From positions 1-39,803 of the IMG/VR virus record IMGVR_UViG_3300021389_002466: DNA of 39,803 bases. One strand, written 5' to 3'. Below the pieces are notes generated by a model. It had not been told where the DNA came from. It ran no database searches and saw only the letters and a program-made list of their open reading frames with translations. Of this stretch, positions 2,308 through 37,993 are shown piece by piece (position 1 is the stretch's first letter; every line of letters begins with the position of its first letter). The DNA comes from a virus. The position numbers were made by a program, and so were the translations under genes.

Positions 2308-2753
2308 TAACCTCTCATTGTTTTTATGTACTCTTCTTTGAATAAACTTTCATACCAATTCACAATTTTTGATTTGATATTTGAAATTCCATTGAATATT
2401 TTTCCTAAGTAGATATCACTTATTCCTTCTGGTGTTAAATTATCCGGATGATGCATTGGTAATATCATATCTTCCCATCCATTTTCTTGCAACCATCTCC
2501 AATCCACTTCACCATATGTTGATTCATCAATTTCAATTTCTTCACCATCAACCGAAGTTACAGTATAGATATTTTCTTCAACTGGTAAATGTCTGTGGGC
2601 TAATATATAGGATTTCAACCTATATTCTGCTGCTCTAGCATTGGTTCTACTCTCCCAACCTAAGTAAGTATTCCAAACCATACTCACAATTAGTAAAGGT
2701 ACAGCGAATCTCGTTGTAAACTTATCCCAAAATAATTTGAACTTTTTTATCAC
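2307..2753 (-). CDS. Membrane-anchored hypothetical protein, 148 aa
   Basis: One N-terminal membrane segment (about residues 16-32, FAVPLLIVSMVWNTYLGW) is followed by a polar domain of about 110 residues with acidic clusters (DGEEIEIDEST). The topology suggests an anchor with the soluble part on one face of the inner membrane. No family recognised. It overlaps the preceding exported protein by four bases. Confidence 0.65.
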   Translation of the reverse strand: MIKKFKLFWDKFTTRFAVPLLIVSMVWNTYLGWESRTNARAAEYRLKSYILAHRHLPVEENIYTVTSVDGEEIEIDESTYGEVDWRWLQENGWEDMILPMHHPDNLTPEGISDIYLGKIFNGISNIKSKIVNWYESLFKEEYIKTMRG

Positions 2754-3118
2754 AATTTTAGAATTAATTTAGTCTCTTTTTTGGTAAACTCACCAATTTT
2801 ATTACCAACCCTCACATAAATCATATCACTATCATCCCAACTGTACTTATCCAAAGCATAAGTTTCAGTTTCTATTATATATTCTGATTTTTTAGATACT
2901 TTTTTAAGATTTGATTGAAATTTATCAAAATCTTTCTGATTAAATGATAATTTTAGGTAACTTTTCACCAATGTACCGCTAATCCAACTCCCATTAGAGT
3001 TTTTATCTTCAAATGTAAACGTAGATATCCCATCGATGGTATTTAATTTGAATGATTCTCCTTCTAAATTTTGACTAAATCCGAAAACTCCTAAGAGTAA
3101 AAATATTAAGTATCTCAT
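2750..3118 (-). CDS. Exported hypothetical protein, about 122 aa
   Basis: The protein begins MRYLIFLLLGVFGFSQ, a short classic signal peptide ending near FSQ. The mature part is beta-rich and Lys/Ser-rich. A start four codons earlier is possible, but the chosen one gives an exact ATGA overlap with the nucleotidyltransferase stop and puts the charge next to the hydrophobic core. Likely periplasmic. It has no lipobox Cys. Function unknown. Confidence 0.65.
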   Translation of the reverse strand: MRYLIFLLLGVFGFSQNLEGESFKLNTIDGISTFTFEDKNSNGSWISGTLVKSYLKLSFNQKDFDKFQSNLKKVSKKSEYIIETETYALDKYSWDDSDMIYVRVGNKIGEFTKKETKLILKL

Positions 3119-3540
3119 TTCAATAACCAACTTGAGGATTGGATTTTGTTTCCTAATCCATCGATTAATTCAATACCATTTTCTTTACAAACCTCAGCTT
3201 CTGGGATTGTATCATTATTTTGGTCACCACCATTAGCGAATGCCAAATCATAAACTTCACCAAACATTTCTGAAAATTGTTTGAGGGTTTCACATTGTGT
3301 TTTATCAGTATCTTGAGAAATTAGAGCGTAATCTACATATCTAATTGCTTTTACGATTTGTAATCTTTCATCCTCATCCATAAAGTACTCAGAACCTTTC
3401 AGTTCTCTTTGCTTATCTGAATTTACAATCACCCAAAGTTTATCAGCATTTTGTTTAGCTAACTCAAATAACTCTAAGTGTCCTTTATGAAGTGGATTAA
3501 AGTATCCACTAACTATAATTGCTTTCTTTTTTGCTTCCAT
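3115..3540 (-). CDS. Cytidylyltransferase-like nucleotidyltransferase, 141 aa
   Basis: SGYFNPLHKGHLELFELAKQ carries the HxGH nucleotide-binding motif of the cytidylyltransferase fold (TagD, RfaE C-terminal domain, PPAT-like). The sequence near the C terminus (QSSSWLL) sits where these enzymes have an (I)SST/R motif. The length matches single-domain members such as glycerol-3-phosphate or sugar cytidylyltransferases. The reaction would join a nucleotide to a phosphorylated alcohol or sugar; the substrate cannot be told. It would fit the sugar-modification genes elsewhere in the window. A second protein of this fold lies at 16.4-16.9 kb. Confidence 0.82.
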   Translation of the reverse strand: MEAKKKAIIVSGYFNPLHKGHLELFELAKQNADKLWVIVNSDKQRELKGSEYFMDEDERLQIVKAIRYVDYALISQDTDKTQCETLKQFSEMFGEVYDLAFANGGDQNNDTIPEAEVCKENGIELIDGLGNKIQSSSWLLK

Positions 3541-3541
3541 A

Positions 3542-3721
3542 TTAATACTTTTTTGTTTTATCTGAAATATCCCACATTCTTCGAGCTAACATAAGTTCTC
3601 TTTTCAAATCTGAAATTTCTTTTTGTTTTTTGAACCAATCACTTCTGAGATTATCAATCTCTTCTTGCTTCTTTTTGAGGTCTTTCCTCAAACCTATATT
3701 TGTTTTGAACCATTTTATCAT
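3542..3721 (-). CDS. Small coiled-coil protein, 59 aa
   Basis: Nearly the whole length (LRKDLKKKQEEIDNLRSDW and on) is a charged heptad-like helix, probably a dimeric coiled coil, with a basic tail. It shares one base with the stop of the IMP dehydrogenase-like gene (TAATG) and fills the gap before the nucleotidyltransferase. Function unknown. Confidence 0.6.
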   Translation of the reverse strand: MIKWFKTNIGLRKDLKKKQEEIDNLRSDWFKKQKEISDLKRELMLARRMWDISDKTKKY

Positions 3722-4800
3722 TATAACAAGTGGGGTTTAGCTTCATTCTGTCCAGCATTGGTAACTACTACATATTTTGGATAGAAATTCGTTAAGTTTT
3801 CAGCTCCAGCATAAGATAGGGCTGATTTTACTCCATCTAATAATCCATTCACAATGAATTTTACTCCACCTTTGTATGGAATTGTAGTAGATTCTCCTTC
3901 AACATTTCTTGTTTGTTGTCCGTGAGTTACTTTGGTTTCCAATGATGCTGAACCTCTATATCTTTTATATAATCCTTTTGGGGTTTCCAAAATCTGACCA
4001 GGAGATTCATCAGTTCCAGCTAATAGGGAACCTAACATCACAGTTTCAGCTCCAATTGCTAGAGCTTTACTCATATCACCACTACTTCTAATACCACCAT
4101 CTGCCATAACTGGTACTCCACTCACTTTCAAAACTTCTTCTAATGAAGTTACATTTGGAACACCAAATCCAGTTTTGATTCTCGTTGTACAAAGTGAACC
4201 TCCACCAATTCCAACTCTCAATCCATCAGCTCCATAAGCTAATAAGGTTTCAGCAGCTTCTTTTGTAGCGATATTTCCAGCTATAATATCCACCATCACC
4301 AAATCATCTTGTGTTTTACACCAATGAATCATATCGATAACATTTAGGTGGTGTCCGTGAGCTACATCAATCAATAAAACGTTAGCTCCAGCTTCAACTA
4401 ATGCTAAAGCTCTATCTTTATCCTCTTCTTGAACACCAATAGCAGCCATAATTGGAACGTGATTAATTTCACCATGCCAATCATCGTACATAACTCCCCA
4501 ATCTTCAGCTATTGAAGGTTCTACAATTGTATCGTGGTGAATAGCTGTATATAATTGTTTTACAATCTTTGCTTGCTCTTCAATACTCATAAATCTATGA
4601 ATACATCCTACTCCACCCAACTCTACCATTTTCAGAGCCATATCAAACTCACAAACTGTATCCATTGGTGAAGCTACGATAGGATTTAGTAATCCATATC
4701 TTCTACTCAACATAGTTCTGAGATTGATATTTGTTCTTGATTTGATATTCGAAAACGCTGGAACCAGCTGAATATCATCATACGTCAATGCGTAATTCAT
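3721..4800 (-). CDS. IMP dehydrogenase / GMP reductase family enzyme, CBS-less, 359 aa
   Basis: This is a TIM-barrel purine enzyme. It has the N-terminal LTYDDIQLVP, the ASPMDTV strand, the phosphate-binding loop around the catalytic Cys (GIGGGSLCTTR, C204), MADGGIRSSGD, MLGSLLAGTDESPG, and a flap ending VEGESTTIPYKG. The C-terminal AGQNEAKPH resembles the IMPDH tail. The CBS regulatory pair found in the middle of cellular IMPDH is absent and the length is about 130 residues short, as in GMP reductase. The IMPDH reaction (IMP to XMP, NAD-dependent) is favoured by the flap and tail, and GMP reductase is the alternative. Either way it redirects guanine nucleotides during infection. Confidence 0.88.
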   Translation of the reverse strand: MNYALTYDDIQLVPAFSNIKSRTNINLRTMLSRRYGLLNPIVASPMDTVCEFDMALKMVELGGVGCIHRFMSIEEQAKIVKQLYTAIHHDTIVEPSIAEDWGVMYDDWHGEINHVPIMAAIGVQEEDKDRALALVEAGANVLLIDVAHGHHLNVIDMIHWCKTQDDLVMVDIIAGNIATKEAAETLLAYGADGLRVGIGGGSLCTTRIKTGFGVPNVTSLEEVLKVSGVPVMADGGIRSSGDMSKALAIGAETVMLGSLLAGTDESPGQILETPKGLYKRYRGSASLETKVTHGQQTRNVEGESTTIPYKGGVKFIVNGLLDGVKSALSYAGAENLTNFYPKYVVVTNAGQNEAKPHLL

Positions 4801-6265: not shown

Positions 6266-7340
6266 TTTCAGTTAGTTCTATTGATTCTACAACTTTTAAT
6301 TTTGTTGGTATTTCCCATTTTTCCAACACATTTTTCATATTACGCTTGATATCAATCAAAGAATACCCATCGTAATGAATTATTTCACCAATTAAGATAT
6401 TTCCCAACACAGAATTCTCTTTTGAAGTGATTTTTACCAATTTTACACCATCTAATTGCTGGATTTTTGATTCAACTAGCTCTAAATTCACATTATATCC
6501 TCCAATTTTTACGATATTCGTACTTCTTCCAACGATTTTAAACTCATTTCTGTTTACAAATGTAACCAAATCACCAGTATTATACCAATCTCCATCCCAC
6601 TTCATATGAAATGATTCACCAACTATATCTTTGTGTAACCAAATTTCATCATTTTTTATCCTAATTTTATCCATAAATTTCTTAGGAATGGTAAAAGTAT
6701 CACCATTTGAAGCAAATAAACTTCCAGCTTCAGTTGATGCATAGATATTTTTCACTCTAGCATTTGGAAAATACTCTGAAATTTTGTGTTGTAATTCTTT
6801 TGAAGAGCGTTCACCACCAAATGTTATTTGTTTTACGTTAGGATATACCCTATCTAATATCATTTTGTACAAAGTTGGTGTAGCAGATATATGAGTTACA
6901 CCATAACTTACTATTCTTTGTTGTATCTCTTTATAATCATACCCATTCATATTCACCAAAGTATCTTTGTTCAAAAGAGCTTGAAAAAGAACTTGATAAC
7001 CAGCCATTCTATCAACTGAATAAAATAATCCCCAAACCATATTTTCATCCTTCAGTTTGATATTTCTAATCATCTTTTCAAACGATTGGTAAATTATCTT
7101 TGGTTCTCCTGTTGTTCCTGAAGTTCTTAATTCGATATTTCCGTTTGTATCCTCCATTACATCAATCAAATGAGAATGATTTTTAATATAAGGTTCAGAA
7201 ACTAAACGCTTGGTTGTATCCAATACAAATCTCTCCAACTCAGTATATTCAGAATCCAATATACTCAATTGTCCGTTTATATAATGAATTAAATCATTAT
7301 AGGTTATGGTATGTTTATCAATAAGAAATATCTTATCCAT
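6246..7340 (-). CDS. AMP-dependent acyl ligase (acyl-ACP synthetase-like), 364 aa
   Basis: The protein belongs to the adenylate-forming (ANL) superfamily. It has core motif TSGTTGEPK (residues 73-81), the STEAG turn, WYNTGDLV with the ribose-binding Asp, the hinge region GGYNVNLELVES and the catalytic C-terminal Lys in ENGKIKR. At 364 residues it is well below the usual 500 or so, the shortening falling in the N-terminal domain. It overlaps the acyl carrier protein gene by 8 bases. It probably activates a carboxylic acid with ATP and loads it on that carrier. The acid (short fatty, hydroxy or amino acid) is not readable from sequence. Confidence 0.85.
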   Translation of the reverse strand: MDKIFLIDKHTITYNDLIHYINGQLSILDSEYTELERFVLDTTKRLVSEPYIKNHSHLIDVMEDTNGNIELRTSGTTGEPKIIYQSFEKMIRNIKLKDENMVWGLFYSVDRMAGYQVLFQALLNKDTLVNMNGYDYKEIQQRIVSYGVTHISATPTLYKMILDRVYPNVKQITFGGERSSKELQHKISEYFPNARVKNIYASTEAGSLFASNGDTFTIPKKFMDKIRIKNDEIWLHKDIVGESFHMKWDGDWYNTGDLVTFVNRNEFKIVGRSTNIVKIGGYNVNLELVESKIQQLDGVKLVKITSKENSVLGNILIGEIIHYDGYSLIDIKRNMKNVLEKWEIPTKLKVVESIELTENGKIKR

Positions 7341-18587: not shown

Positions 18588-18622
18588 AATTTATTTATTA
18601 GGGTTTCTCATCAATTACAGTA

Positions 18623-18654
18623 CTAACATACGAAAAATAAATGAGAATTCCAAA
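18623..18654 (-). promoter_or_regulatory. Bacteroidota-type promoter (TTTG-N20-TATGTTAG)
   Basis: Same core and spacing as the other copies, with GTACTGTAATTGA downstream. It lies between the last structured RNA of the tRNA cluster and the 71-aa gene. Confidence 0.9.
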
Positions 18655-18672: not shown

Positions 18673-18806
18673 TATAGGATAGGAATAGTTTTATCGGGAA
18701 TCTGAATTTTGTAGAACCTTCACACACCATTAGAGATTTGTGCTTAGTGTGTACCCTTGCGATAGTGTTCTCCCACTTTACTATTCTACGCTTCCTCTAT
18801 CCTATA
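18673..18806 (-). ncRNA. Candidate structured RNA D (134 nt) at the end of the tRNA cluster
   Basis: No open frame covers this segment. On the minus strand it folds on paper into a closed multi-helix RNA. P1 is TATAGGATAG with CTATCCTATA (10 bp) and P2 is GAATAG with CTATTC. Inner pairs are GGGA/TCCC, AGAAC/GTTCT and ACACAC/GTGTGT. TATCG can pair with CGATA across these and would form a pseudoknot. It starts 16 bases after tRNA-Glu. It does not match RNase P, tmRNA or 6S RNA as far as I can tell. The stem pairings are seen directly; expression and function are inferred. Confidence 0.62.
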
Positions 18807-18822
18807 TATTTATCAACTTTTG

Positions 18823-18894
18823 TAGCCCGTAGGAGAATCGAACTCCTATTTTATGGATGAAAACCATATGTCCTAACCGTTAGACGAACGGGCC
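18823..18894 (-). tRNA. tRNA-Glu (anticodon TTC)
   Basis: 72 nt. A cloverleaf is visible: acceptor GGCCCGT with ACGGGCT (G-T at the end), T-loop GTTCGATTC and anticodon loop with TTC. No CCA is encoded. It is flanked by structured-RNA candidates on both sides. Confidence 0.95.
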
Positions 18895-18899
18895 AAATA

Positions 18900-19020
18900 A
18901 GAGAGGTTTCGGGTCTTTCAAGGTTTCTGACTGGGTGCAATTAGAGATGCCTAGCTACTACAAACCTTTTTTTGCTAATTAATTCTCTCTACTTCCCAAT
19001 TACAGCTTCACTGCCTCTCT
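18900..19020 (-). ncRNA. Candidate structured RNA C (121 nt) between tRNA-Ala and tRNA-Glu
   Basis: The segment exactly fills the space between two tRNAs, five bases from each. Its ends pair (AGAGAGG with CCTCTCT, 7 bp). Inside, AAGGTTT pairs with AAACCTT and TAGC with GCTA. A loop AUCUCUAAU flanked by short GC arms also occurs in RNA D. A second copy of AGAGAG in the 5' third could pair with the same 3' strand, so a switch is possible. It is not a tRNA: no GTTCRA T-loop is present. Confidence 0.55.
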
Positions 19021-19025
19021 ATTTG

Positions 19026-19099
19026 TGGAGAATATCGGAGTCGAACCGATGACCTCTTCGGTGCAAGCGAAGCGCTCTAGCCAGCTGAGCTAATTCCCC
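19026..19099 (-). tRNA. tRNA-Ala (anticodon TGC)
   Basis: 74 nt. Acceptor GGGGAAT with ATTCTCC (one G-T), anticodon loop CTTGCAC and T-loop GTTCGACTC. No encoded CCA. It starts two bases after the stop of the 63-aa gene. Confidence 0.95.
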
Positions 19100-19101
19100 T
19101 C

Positions 19102-19293
19102 CTACATATCCCCATCGGGATAGTAACCATAATCATCAAACCTTTCTCGGTTTTTATGTTTTGGTTTTCTTTTGAAATCCTTTTTAGATTTCTCTACTTT
19201 CTCAGTCATCCTCTTTCCGATATGATGAGAAGCTTCACCTTGGGTCATGTCATCCCAATCCAACTTCTCTTTATATCTTCCCTTCTTCTTCAT
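19102..19293 (-). CDS. Basic small protein in the tRNA cluster, 63 aa
   Basis: Highly Lys/Arg-rich (KSKKDFKRKPKHKNRERF) with an acidic Tyr/Asp tail. Basic enough to bind RNA or DNA. It sits between two tRNAs and ends next to tRNA-Ala, so the mRNA and tRNA would be cut apart by RNase P. A role with the RNAs of the cluster is only a guess. Confidence 0.65.
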   Translation of the reverse strand: MKKKGRYKEKLDWDDMTQGEASHHIGKRMTEKVEKSKKDFKRKPKHKNRERFDDYGYYPDGDM

Positions 19294-19301
19294 AATACTT
19301 A

Positions 19302-19752
19302 AACTATCGTTCTTTTATTTATTTATTGTGATTGAAAAGTTTTAATAAACTCATCTAATCTTTCGTTTGACTTTTTACTTTGGTCTATAACCTTTCTAAC
19401 TTCAACTCCAGAAGCAATATCACCTCTGAATTTGTTTTCTAACTTATCTAATCTTGAATCGATAAATGCATAAATCTCTTTATCATTTCCATCCAAGTGC
19501 CTTTCCATCGAATCCATTTGGTTTACCAATTGTTCTCTGGTTTTATCAACTACGATATCGATTCTAGTATCGGTATCTTCTAAGAATGATTCTAAATAAT
19601 CTACTCTTTTTTTTAAATCAAATACACCCTTCGCCGCATACCCCAATAGGAATATAAAAATCGATGAGAATGCACCTAATACAATATATAGTGTTTCCAT
19701 AATTTTATTTTTATTTTTAAATTTAAATTCAATATTTCAATGAACGATAGTT
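19302..19752. repeat. 11-base inverted repeat bracketing the 125-aa gene
   Basis: AACTATCGTTC at 19302-19312 is the exact reverse complement of GAACGATAGTT at 19742-19752. The arms sit just outside the two ends of the coiled-coil gene. In the transcript they could pair and loop out the gene, or the right copy can fold alone (GAAC-loop-GTTC). Could be a processing site or the trace of insertion. Confidence 0.5.
19323..19700 (-). CDS. Membrane-anchored coiled-coil protein, 125 aa
   Basis: An N-terminal helix (LYIVLGAFSSIFIFLLGYAA) anchors the protein. It is followed by a long charged coiled coil from about residue 28 to 110 (FDLKKRVDYLESFLEDTDT and on). The layout is like small phage or host inner-membrane scaffolds. 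It is a protein gene set inside the tRNA array. Confidence 0.7.
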   Translation of the reverse strand: METLYIVLGAFSSIFIFLLGYAAKGVFDLKKRVDYLESFLEDTDTRIDIVVDKTREQLVNQMDSMERHLDGNDKEIYAFIDSRLDKLENKFRGDIASGVEVRKVIDQSKKSNERLDEFIKTFQSQ

Positions 19753-19754
19753 CG

Positions 19755-19839
19755 CAGAGGAAGAGGGATTCGAACCCCCGGTACCGTTAAGTACGCTTGA
19801 TTTCAAGTCAAGTCCATTCGACCGCTCTGGCATTCCTCT
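19755..19839 (-). tRNA. tRNA-Ser (anticodon TGA)
   Basis: 85 nt with a long variable arm (CGTACTTAACGGTACCG), anticodon loop CTTGAAA, acceptor AGAGGAA with TTCCTCT, discriminator G and T-loop GTTCGAATC. No CCA encoded. Confidence 0.95.
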
Positions 19840-19847
19840 AAAATAAA

Positions 19848-19982
19848 ATGAAGATGAAGGAAGCTACCCTTATGAGAACACCCGTCGATGTTTTTTCCTC
19901 ATCAAAAACTCAGTTTCGGCCCAACCTTATAGTGTCTGCAGAACACAAGGATTTTACGTTTTCCTCAACCTTCATTCTTCAT
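19848..19982 (-). ncRNA. Candidate structured RNA B (135 nt) between tRNA-Arg and tRNA-Ser
   Basis: The terminal stem is long: ATGAAGAATGAAGG pairs with CCTTCATCTTCAT (13 pairs and one bulge). Inside, CCTT/AAGG and GTGT/ACAC build a hairpin, GATG pairs with CATC, and TGAG pairs with CTCA near P1. Just inside P1 the motif GAGGAAAACGTAAAAT recalls GAGGAAGCGTAGAAT of RNA D at the same place. No protein frame on the transcribed strand explains the segment. Function unknown. Confidence 0.6.
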
Positions 19983-19983
19983 T

Positions 19984-20041
19984 GTGTAGGTTTAATCCAC
20001 CTACACTTTATTTTAATGTTAGGTTACTAACAACTAAGTTG
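19984..20041 (-). repeat. Three small hairpins between RNA B and tRNA-Arg
   Basis: The largest has an 8-bp perfect stem (GTGTAGGT with ACCTACAC, 7-base loop). The second is GTTAG/CTAAC with a 4-base loop, and the third is the palindrome CAACTAAGTTG. No T-run follows, so they do not look like terminators. They may be processing or stability elements for the cluster. Confidence 0.5.
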
Positions 20042-20051
20042 TGTTCACCAG

Positions 20052-20125
20052 TACACCCAATAGGAGTCGAACCTATAACCCTCGCCTTAGAAGGGCGATG
20101 CTCTATCCAGTTGAGCTATGGGTGC
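20052..20125 (-). tRNA. tRNA-Arg (anticodon TCT)
   Basis: 74 nt. Acceptor GCACCCA with TGGGTGT, anticodon loop CTTCTAA and T-loop GTTCGACTC. It reads AGA, the Arg codon favoured by AT-rich phage genes. No CCA encoded. Confidence 0.95.
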
Positions 20126-20137
20126 ATTCAATATGTT

Positions 20138-20239
20138 GGAGAGGGGCTACCTAACGACTGTAGCCGGCTCTTTATCTTAATATGTGTTTATTAGTGGTTG
20201 CATGGTACAAACTTATAAAGACCTCATTCTCCCCTCTCC
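20138..20239 (-). ncRNA. Candidate structured RNA A (102 nt) between tRNA-Leu and tRNA-Arg
   Basis: The ends form a 9-bp GC-rich stem (GGAGAGGGG with CCCCTCTCC), rare in this AT-rich genome. Inside, TCTTTAT pairs with ATAAAGA (7 bp), GTTT with AAAC, and GGCTAC with GTAGCC (a hairpin). The last competes with part of P1. It lies 12 bases from tRNA-Arg and 25 from tRNA-Leu. No start codon with a long enough frame is present. Confidence 0.6.
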
Positions 20240-20253
20240 TTTTATCTTTTCTA

Positions 20254-20362
20254 CGAATACTAAGTACCTCGAGCCGGAGTCGAACCGGCACGAACATTAC
20301 TGTTCATTGGATTTTAAGTCCAACGTGTCTACCAATTCCACCACCGAGGTGTTCAGTATTCG
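20254..20362 (-). repeat. 8-base inverted repeat flanking tRNA-Leu
   Basis: CGAATACT (20254-20261) and AGTATTCG (20355-20362) bracket the tRNA and would stack a further 8-bp helix near its acceptor stem in the precursor. The pairing suggests a processing signal for excision of the tRNA. Confidence 0.55.
20265..20350 (-). tRNA. tRNA-Leu (anticodon TAA)
   Basis: 86 nt with variable arm (TGAACAGTAATGTTCG), anticodon loop CTTAAAA, acceptor ACCTCGG with TCGAGGT and T-loop GTTCGACTC. It reads the TTA codon, abundant in AT-rich genes. First RNA after the cluster promoter. Confidence 0.95.
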
Positions 20363-20408
20363 TTATACTATCATTAAATCAAAGAACTTCTCTTTCCTTA
20401 TTAGATTA

Positions 20409-20440
20409 CTAATATACGAAAACTTTTTCGTAATTCCAAA
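20409..20440 (-). promoter_or_regulatory. Promoter of the tRNA/structured-RNA cluster (TTTG-N20-TATATTAG)
   Basis: Same motif as the protein operons, 59 bases before tRNA-Leu. It points the whole array, down to 18.67 kb, at one host-type promoter. Confidence 0.9.
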
Positions 20441-36680: not shown

Positions 36681-37221
36681 TATTTAAATCCAATAGAGTA
36701 ATAATTTTATCAACTGTAAACTCATCCACTTTAATAGTGTGATAGTTGAATCCATTATCATCTAATATCTTTTTACATAATGTATCGATTTCAATAGATT
36801 GTTTTATATCTTGAAATCTTTCATCATCATTATGCTGAGTTTCCCCTCTTTCTAAAAGTATGTTTATACTATTATACCTTTTGTGTAAACTGATAATAAA
36901 ATTATGAAACTCTTCTCCATAAAATTCTGCAGGATATCCTTCAGTATAATAGGTATGGTAAATTGTAGAAAATAGAATTGGTGAATCAATTACTATATAA
37001 TCTACTTTACCATAACTTTCAGCAATCCCTCTATGTTGGTTTGCAAATACATAAAGTTGGTCTTTGATTGCTGGGATGTTATTATCCCATGCTAATCTCT
37101 TTGGAAATTCATATGGGTTATTACAACTAATGTGTCTTTTCTTTAATTCATAGGTAATACCAGCTGATATGCCTGATTTTCCTATGCCTGGTCCTCCAAA
37201 TAAATTAATTAACTTGCTCAC
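36667..37221 (-). CDS. P-loop ATPase/kinase-like protein (AAA_28-like), 184 aa
   Basis: LFGGPGIGKSGISAGITYEL has a Walker A motif (GGPGIGKS, residues 9-16), and DYIVIDSPILFS is the Walker B-like strand. A later RGETQHNDDERFQD forms a lid-like region. This resembles small phage kinases or NadR-like ATP enzymes. Its start is GTG, inside the end of the nuclease gene (17 bases overlap). Substrate unknown. Confidence 0.78.
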   Translation of the reverse strand: MSKLINLFGGPGIGKSGISAGITYELKKRHISCNNPYEFPKRLAWDNNIPAIKDQLYVFANQHRGIAESYGKVDYIVIDSPILFSTIYHTYYTEGYPAEFYGEEFHNFIISLHKRYNSINILLERGETQHNDDERFQDIKQSIEIDTLCKKILDDNGFNYHTIKVDEFTVDKIITLLDLNNESK

Positions 37222-37993
37222 TAAATATATTGTTTAATAGATTTGCCAATCTGATTCCTGCTTCATATAACCTTTGTTCCACAATTGGAAAATTCTCATA
37301 AACATAATCGTATGAAAGATATGAACCTTCTTTTGTTTCATATATCTTTGGTACGAATTGATGTGATTCATTTGCCCAATCTTTTGCTGTTCTTTGTTCA
37401 ATAGGCATCGAACCATATTTGTTAATTAGATGAGTAGATAAATCTGAATGGGACATTTTAAAATCATCAATCAATCCAGCATCCCATAAATCATGTAAGT
37501 TAGTTAAACTCTCAGCATCTTTTCTACCTTTGAAGTAAACATCAATTTTGTTTCCACCCCAATCTTCTTCCCTACCAGTGTGAAGTGGTTGGTGAATATC
37601 ACCCACCATATGTACTAAATACTTTAACCAAAATTGCTTTACTGATTTCTCTGCCATTGGTGATTCCAAAATTGGAATAGCTGTGTTAATCATCTTAACT
37701 ACATTTGGTCCAATGTGAGAAACATCATCATAATCTTTATCAAGAGGTAGATTTACATAATGCCAAGTTGAATACTTATCGAACTCTGGATTACTTCTCA
37801 TCTCATCAGCCCAAGTTGATACTGATGCAAGTGATTCACCATCTAACAATTCGTAAACCTTTTCTTTAACTTCAGGTCTAAGATGTCTTTCAGCAATCTC
37901 ACCAACAGTTCGATGTCCAATTTTACCCCAAGCAGTAATCTCTGAAAACGAACTTAGGATTATAATAAATGTAAATAGTAATAACTTTTTCAT
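37205..37993 (-). CDS. Secreted S1/P1-type zinc nuclease, 262 aa
   Basis: A signal peptide ends before W22, so the mature N-terminal Trp can bind zinc as in nuclease P1. The trinuclear site is complete: WGKIGH (H27), STWADEMR, STWHYVNLP, HMVGDIHQPLHTG and NLHDLWDAGL. It cuts single-stranded RNA and DNA. Export to the periplasm suggests degradation of host or rival phage nucleic acid during entry or release, or nutrient gain. Not a usual phage gene. It overlaps the P-loop gene by 17 bases. Confidence 0.93.
   Translation of the reverse strand: MKKLLLFTFIIILSSFSEITAWGKIGHRTVGEIAERHLRPEVKEKVYELLDGESLASVSTWADEMRSNPEFDKYSTWHYVNLPLDKDYDDVSHIGPNVVKMINTAIPILESPMAEKSVKQFWLKYLVHMVGDIHQPLHTGREEDWGGNKIDVYFKGRKDAESLTNLHDLWDAGLIDDFKMSHSDLSTHLINKYGSMPIEQRTAKDWANESHQFVPKIYETKEGSYLSYDYVYENFPIVEQRLYEAGIRLANLLNNIFSEQVN

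Follow-up and report, generated by a model that had tools for sequence, protein, structure and literature searches.

A 39.8-kb linear viral record from a marine phage (IMG/VR record IMGVR_UViG_3300021389_002466, analysed over its whole length of 39,803 nucleotides (nt) and called the window here) carries within its transfer RNA (tRNA) cluster an RNA, named RNA C, that belongs to a conserved, pseudoknotted and previously uncatalogued family without Rfam match. Within the collections searched, this family is restricted to phages. RNA C is one of four modules, A to D, that share the minus strand with five tRNA genes in the order tRNA-Leu, RNA A, tRNA-Arg, RNA B, tRNA-Ser, two open reading frames (ORFs), tRNA-Ala, RNA C, tRNA-Glu and RNA D. 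An earlier note on this DNA had claimed this arrangement, including the two small ORFs between tRNA-Ser and tRNA-Ala, and ARAGORN, Rfam and the ORF list agree with it. The four closed-stem segments that it placed beside the tRNAs are present, at distances from the nearest tRNA that range from about 4-5 nt (RNA C, on both sides) up to about 24 nt (RNA A, on its 5' side). Its proposal of structured RNAs within a tRNA operon is borne out by covariation tests on homologues, in which compensatory changes were found for B, C and D and at one pair for A. Conserved folds are established for the RNAs B, C and D.

RNA C, a covarying pseudoknotted family of phages

The family is defined by a closing stem that is free in sequence, by a core made of an A-rich loop, a GGGUUU/AAACCC pseudoknot and a GAAAGACCCGAA strand, and by an exchangeable interior hairpin. 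Conservation outside the helices is concentrated in three largely unpaired parts: the A-rich loop that precedes GGGUUU, a GUA that follows it, and the GAAAGACCCGAA before the closing stem, which is replaced by GAAACACCCAAA in the copies of T5-like and T4-like phages. Covariation was assessed on 64 uncultured sequences and on 13 cultured-phage sequences that were aligned independently. In the uncultured set, 27 pairs in five helices, the pseudoknot included, were tested; 89.9% of the cells are paired, against 73.5% after shuffling and at most 52.5% in slid structures, and double changes occupy 309 cells, against 104.5 after shuffling and at most 97 in slid structures. Covarying pairs make up all seven of the closing stem, four of seven in P2, all four of P4 and three of six in the pseudoknot, while the inner helix P3 aligns poorly (50% paired). 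The cultured-phage set is 92.3% paired against 67.1%, with 75 double changes against 22. These statistics ignore relatedness, and the slid controls, which retain it, fail. The pairs of the pseudoknot are formed in 93.0% (alignment A8) and 94.9% (alignment A11) of cases, with compensatory changes in both, so that a pseudoknot of the GGGUUU/AAACCC type with compensatory change is present in RNA C; the earlier note had proposed a pseudoknot for RNA D, and it is RNA C that has a well-supported one. The covariance model recovers the window copy at 18895-19023 with 128.8 bits, the window sequence being among the model-building set. Lax Rfam searches of RNA C returned nothing credible, neither riboswitch nor ribozyme. 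The 9-mer GAAAGACCC, shared with 23S rRNA, was dropped as a lead, its occurrence being compatible with chance.

The distribution of the family was followed with a DNA pattern made of its two most conserved strands, GTGAAGCTGTA...GAAAGACCC. The pattern retrieved 100 uncultured viral contigs, of which 91 were judged genuine by inspection of the core motif and nine, lacking the core, were judged chance matches. Some IMG/VR contigs may duplicate one virus, and counts were taken on distinct sequences. In the genome_contigs collection, which is far larger (257 billion bases), the pattern matched nine times; the core was present only in a phage-like contig of a Flavobacterium metagenome-assembled genome, and the other eight matches were rejected as lacking it. 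Neither 72,556 plasmids nor 5,426 E. coli genomes contained the RNA when searched. When the window's modules A to D were compared with cultured phages by Blast, only tRNA or chance matches were obtained, and the cultured-phage copies of RNA C were reached by way of divergent copies, which yielded 62 records, with duplicates counted and the weakest uncertain. The cultured carriers comprise T4-like, T5-like, Vequintavirinae, jumbo RaK2, Rhizobium and crAss-like phages. In Erwinia phage Hena1 and its relatives the gap between tRNA-Gly and tRNA-Glu is filled exactly by C, and among the E. coli T4-like phages with a copy is mogra, where C fills the gap between tRNA-Met and tRNA-Arg, an interval at 100,444-100,546 of MN850579. 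It was also found in Pseudomonas phage Milchi, Klebsiella phages IME260, RaK2 and VLCpiM5b, Proteus phage PL1, Pectobacterium phages My1 and PM2, Rhizobium phage RHEph12 and Cellulophaga phage phi14:2. The model gave no copy in T4 or T5, with no credible match in T4. All 13 complete cultured records that hold C hold it once. No published description of the family was found in the literature searched, a body outside which preprints and most subscription journals lie.

The genomic surroundings of C vary widely. Of the 67 distinct sequences retrieved with the pattern, 25 are flanked by same-strand tRNAs at no more than 20 nt on both sides, 22 are so flanked on one side and 20 on neither, so that about 70% of the copies abut a same-strand tRNA; no copy has a tRNA neighbour on the opposite strand, and 15 different pairs of neighbouring tRNAs occur. 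Several of the 20 sequences without tRNA border degenerate tRNA-like sequence, and others directly follow a stop codon. In Klebsiella phage VLCpiM5b, two parts of the DNA polymerase gene are separated by a group I intron (RF00028, 69.8 bits, L296:1091-1395), and C sits in the P6 loop of this intron. Because C is found in intron and intergenic settings too, its domain appears to work on its own, and the variety of contexts speaks against a role tied only to tRNAs, at least for C. Comparison of the loci also revealed that the interior enclosed by the two conserved strands is exchanged between phages like a cassette. In 12 locus pairs the flanks are alike (>80%) and the middles different (<62%), and in 256 pairs the middles are alike (>85%) and the flanks unrelated. 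The pairs L188/L214 and L179/L259 have flanks 96-99% identical around interiors at about 50%, and L229 and L182 have identical interiors within unrelated flanks. These findings argue that C is a portable RNA domain, complete in itself, which travels on stable RNAs and for which tRNAs are merely good carriers, and not a spacer for tRNA processing.

The tRNA operon and its other modules

The cluster extends over 18822-20350 (Table 1). Its non-coding gaps measure 138 nt after tRNA-Leu, 211 nt after tRNA-Arg and 130 nt after tRNA-Ala; tRNA-Ser is followed by the two ORFs and tRNA-Glu by the structured segment of RNA D. A small hairpin between tRNA-Arg and RNA B had been absent from the earlier note. 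The five tRNAs, the four RNAs and the two ORFs look like one transcription unit, because one promoter-like repeat precedes tRNA-Leu and another lies just past RNA D. This repeat, TTTGG-N17-TTCGTATRTTAGTA, has eight minus-strand copies in the window, ahead of gene groups (5446, 9301, 14457, 18634, 20420, 23457, 24292 and 30224), plus one plus-strand match.

Table 1. Features of the tRNA operon and its borders (window coordinates)
Feature	Position	Strand	Evidence and remarks
Promoter-like repeat TTTGG-N17-TTCGTATATTAGTA, upstream of operon	20407..20440	-	also seen as repeated DNA; putative promoter
tRNA-Leu(TAA)	20264..20350	-	ARAGORN, Rfam RF00005
RNA A	20138..20239	-	9-bp closing stem GGAGAGGGG/CCCCTCTCC; fold z -2.49
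tRNA-Arg(TCT)	20051..20125	-	ARAGORN, Rfam RF00005
Small extra hairpin upstream of RNA B	19984..20006	-	another closed-stem module at this place in L007
RNA B, closed-stem multi-helix RNA	19850..19980	-	five homologues; covariation
tRNA-Ser(TGA)	19754..19839	-	ARAGORN, Rfam RF00005
ORF, 125 aa	19323..19700	-	no Pfam match; homologues 94% (L006) and 43% (L007) identical
ORF, 63 aa, basic	19102..19293	-	no Pfam match; homologues 97% and 74% identical
tRNA-Ala(TGC)	19025..19099	-	ARAGORN, Rfam RF00005
RNA C, pseudoknotted phage RNA, ~120 nt	18900..19020	-	closing stem AGAGAGG/CCTCTCT; covariation, family searches
RNA C pseudoknot strands	18921..18967	-	AGGTTT (18962-18967) with AAACCT (18921-18926)
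tRNA-Glu(TTC)	18822..18894	-	ARAGORN, Rfam RF00005
RNA D	18673..18806	-	10-bp closing stem TATAGGATAG/CTATCCTATA; z -2.17; three members
Promoter-like repeat directly downstream of RNA D	18621..18654	-	repeat scan; putative promoter

The four modules are neither missed tRNAs, since none receives an ARAGORN call or an RF00005 match, nor tRNA introns, for which ARAGORN in intron mode returned noise only. An Rfam search of the tRNA region, lax E-values included, found the tRNA family alone together with antisense echoes of the tRNAs, and no non-tRNA family reached its gathering cut-off anywhere in the window. No similarity was found among the four, and the models of B, C and D do not match each other's modules in the window.

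The fold energies that the earlier note had suggested as a check have z values of -2.5 for A, -1.3 for B, -0.3 for C and -2.2 for D, and taken alone they mislead. With energy as the sole criterion RNA C would fail and RNA B would be doubtful. C has the worst score yet the strongest covariation because the folding program cannot see its pseudoknot, and fold energy was discarded as uninformative for this RNA. Homologues of RNA B number five, every one inside a tRNA array; 98.9% of their cells are paired against 86.3% after shuffling, with 11 double changes against 4.4, although 39 of 500 shuffles reached the observed number of pairs with double changes. The three members of RNA D pair in 63 of 63 cells and have five compensatory pairs against 1.6 in shuffled alignments. 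RNA A has homologues at the same Leu-Arg site of the relatives L006 and L007, and among these three members one compensatory pair was found, in the closing stem; it is probably a conserved folded RNA, with a putative inner structure. Beyond the known copies, a DNA pattern for RNA A retrieved only unrelated matches without tRNAs. A compact 81-nt module at L263:8375-8455 contains the core of RNA B, GGCCGTAACTG...CTCATAAGGGTAGC; its divergence or its shortness puts it out of reach of the B model.

As for the virus itself, its genes for GroEL, thymidylate synthase and IMP dehydrogenase (3721-4800) fit a large phage of the Bacteroidota, the presumed host group. The window further encodes an S1/P1 nuclease (37205-37993), and at the contig edge (39105-39797) it holds the C-terminal part of the beta-barrel of a TonB-dependent receptor, which is unusual for a phage.

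Related arrays and known phage RNAs

Comparison with close relatives indicates that the composition of these arrays is fluid. The relative L006 keeps A and B and lacks C, its Ala-Glu gap being about 20 nt; in the slot of RNA D it has an ORF (6786-7166) homologous to window positions 2750-3130. In the relative L007, A and B occupy the same places, D lies between tRNA-Thr and tRNA-Cys, and two more closed-stem modules (6315-6455 and 6529-6596) stand before tRNA-Arg(CCG) and before tRNA-Ala. Modules have therefore been gained, lost and moved among tRNA neighbours. Across the related contigs, 354 of 772 gaps between adjacent same-strand tRNAs are shorter than 50 nt and the remainder often hold non-coding modules. 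A significant terminal stem, as judged against shuffles, was detected in 29 of 101 representative non-coding inter-tRNA gaps, compared with 3 of 101 control segments. Recurring modules besides A-F are one with GGTTAAGCGATATCCTGC and the compact 81-nt relative of B. The former, AATCG...GGTTAAGCGATATCCTGC with a possible ATCG/CGAT pseudoknot, occurs at L173:11537-11597, L180:2918-2978, L187:1328-1416, L188:6786-6861, L197:1192-1290 and L262:10532-10605. Five loci (L047:11830-12143, L072:6837-7825, L054:11290-11839, L130:11752-11898 and L077:7255-7369) contain RNAs of about 100-150 nt that combine a tRNA acceptor stem and a canonical T-arm with a replaced or enlarged middle. The end of T4 rnaC (L290) has a T-arm and acceptor strand of this kind. 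These RNAs are possibly a class of tRNA-scaffolded RNAs.

The view of the earlier note that one such RNA after nearly every tRNA has no precedent was too strong, as many related arrays are alike and stable or structured RNAs had been described in comparable places. T4 rnaC and rnaD (species 1 and 2) are stable RNAs within a phage tRNA cluster (PMC3014915, PMC9697503), validated by Northern blot (PMC9697503), and GOLLD and ROOL are phage or prophage RNAs near tRNA islands (PMC12286853). That phages keep stable orphan RNAs among their clustered tRNAs is thus already known; the four modules match neither these RNAs nor any other Rfam family. The T4 RNAs resemble the present modules in size (119-139 nt), in lying beside the tRNAs of a phage cluster and in their unknown function. 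However, rnaC has a T-arm and acceptor strand like those of a tRNA at its end, and neither RNA matches the C model or has similarity to A, B or D. In phage mogra, homologues of T4 rnaD and rnaC (L297:2000-2264) occur in the same tRNA region as the C copy. GOLLD and ROOL are likewise phage RNAs of unknown function near tRNA islands, but both of them form RNA cages, and lengths above 800 nt are frequent for GOLLD, whereas the present modules span 100-140 nt and match neither. Group I introns share with C only the copy placed in an intron loop, C alone having no group I core; RF00028 is absent from the window and unmatched by C itself in ten C-bearing loci, where an Rfam scan found tRNAs only, plus a separate group I intron in the tRNA array of L187. 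A type III antitoxin RNA (ToxI-like) was rejected as an identity for C, with no tandem pseudoknot repeats and a single C per genome in the complete records. The c-di-GMP-II riboswitch is also a small pseudoknotted RNA, and was discarded as a relative after its model, RF01786, gave no match at C.

Possible roles of RNA C and of the operon

The favoured reading, which is given about an even chance of being right, is that the operon is a carrier of independent RNA modules and that C acts in trans, its likeliest role being that of a decoy or sponge directed at a host factor. The modules would be transcribed together with the tRNAs from a putative phage promoter at ~20,420, and RNase P cleavage at the 5' end of the downstream tRNA together with 3' processing of the upstream tRNA would set them free. 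The tight spacing makes it plausible that enzymes of tRNA processing release them in this way. The freed modules would be stable RNAs of about 120-140 nt with a tRNA-like abundance, and C may bind a host protein or a small ligand in a way that aids infection, its closing stem presumably serving only to anchor the domain on a stable carrier. A decoy or sponge is preferred among the roles in trans because the distribution of C is patchy, shuffled and phage-only. Several observations weigh against this reading. The arguments for a decoy come entirely from context and conservation, and the A-rich pseudoknot core could likewise belong to a ribozyme, to a ligand aptamer or to an element that stabilises RNA. 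Moreover, about one third of the C copies have no recognised tRNA alongside, so the abundance expected of a tRNA operon is not guaranteed for them, and the placement in a group I intron is a single example.

A ligand aptamer is ranked a close second, and spacer, ribozyme and selfish element are ranked as less likely. The aptamer, itself rather unlikely, would sequester a small molecule used in signalling, such as a nucleotide that serves an antiphage system as second messenger. The pseudoknot core of C, A-rich and conserved, and the variable helices outside it recall how ligand-binding RNAs are built, the carriers could give a high copy number, and a c-di-GMP aptamer is known beside or in a group I intron in Clostridioides, a site comparable to the intron loop occupied by C; however, neither the c-di-GMP-II model nor any other Rfam riboswitch matches C, there is no expression platform and no ligand is known. 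That the modules are instead spacers acting in cis, whose stems part neighbouring tRNAs and aid their folding, processing or stability, is improbable. The tight contact of 47 of the 67 distinct C sequences with same-strand tRNAs and the enrichment of terminal stems in inter-tRNA gaps agree with such a function, but the core of C is conserved far beyond the needs of a spacer, copies of C also stand between ORFs and inside a group I intron, L006 lacks it between the same tRNAs, and the 354 short gaps of the same arrays do without a spacer.

A slightly lower probability still is attributed to the modules being selfish or neutral passengers, that is, mobile RNA elements or intron remnants with no role for the phage. 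Their patchy presence, shuffled sites and exchanged cassettes, and the copy inside a group I intron, would be expected of passengers; on the other hand, the structure is under strong purifying and compensatory evolution, C is single in each genome instead of multiplied, its neighbouring tRNAs are always on the same strand, and it is spread widely over unrelated phages. The least probable of these explanations is that C cleaves itself as a ribozyme and so processes the transcript of the array. The pseudoknot and the highly conserved strands on either side of the closing stem would suit catalysis, yet cleavage in the P6 loop would sever the VLCpiM5b intron, array processing would already be served by RNase P, and no Rfam ribozyme matches. 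Returning to a decoy acting in trans, a bolder form of it is possible but doubtful: C may be a widespread counter-host RNA whose abundant, portable and aptamer-like domain neutralises a conserved defence protein or signalling molecule of bacteria, in which case the tRNA operons of large phages would be docking sites for exchangeable RNAs (A, B, C, D and others).

The stable RNAs of phage tRNA clusters have been unexplained since T4 rnaC and rnaD, and C now represents one defined and strongly covarying family among them. It is common to phages of Bacteroidota, gamma- and alphaproteobacteria; its core is conserved, each genome has one copy and its placement is portable. Its natural presence in mogra, a phage that infects E. 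coli K-12, opens its expression, partner and effect to direct study. The many further closed-stem modules in the same arrays suggest that the tRNA operons of phages hold a stock of non-coding RNA genes that has been overlooked.

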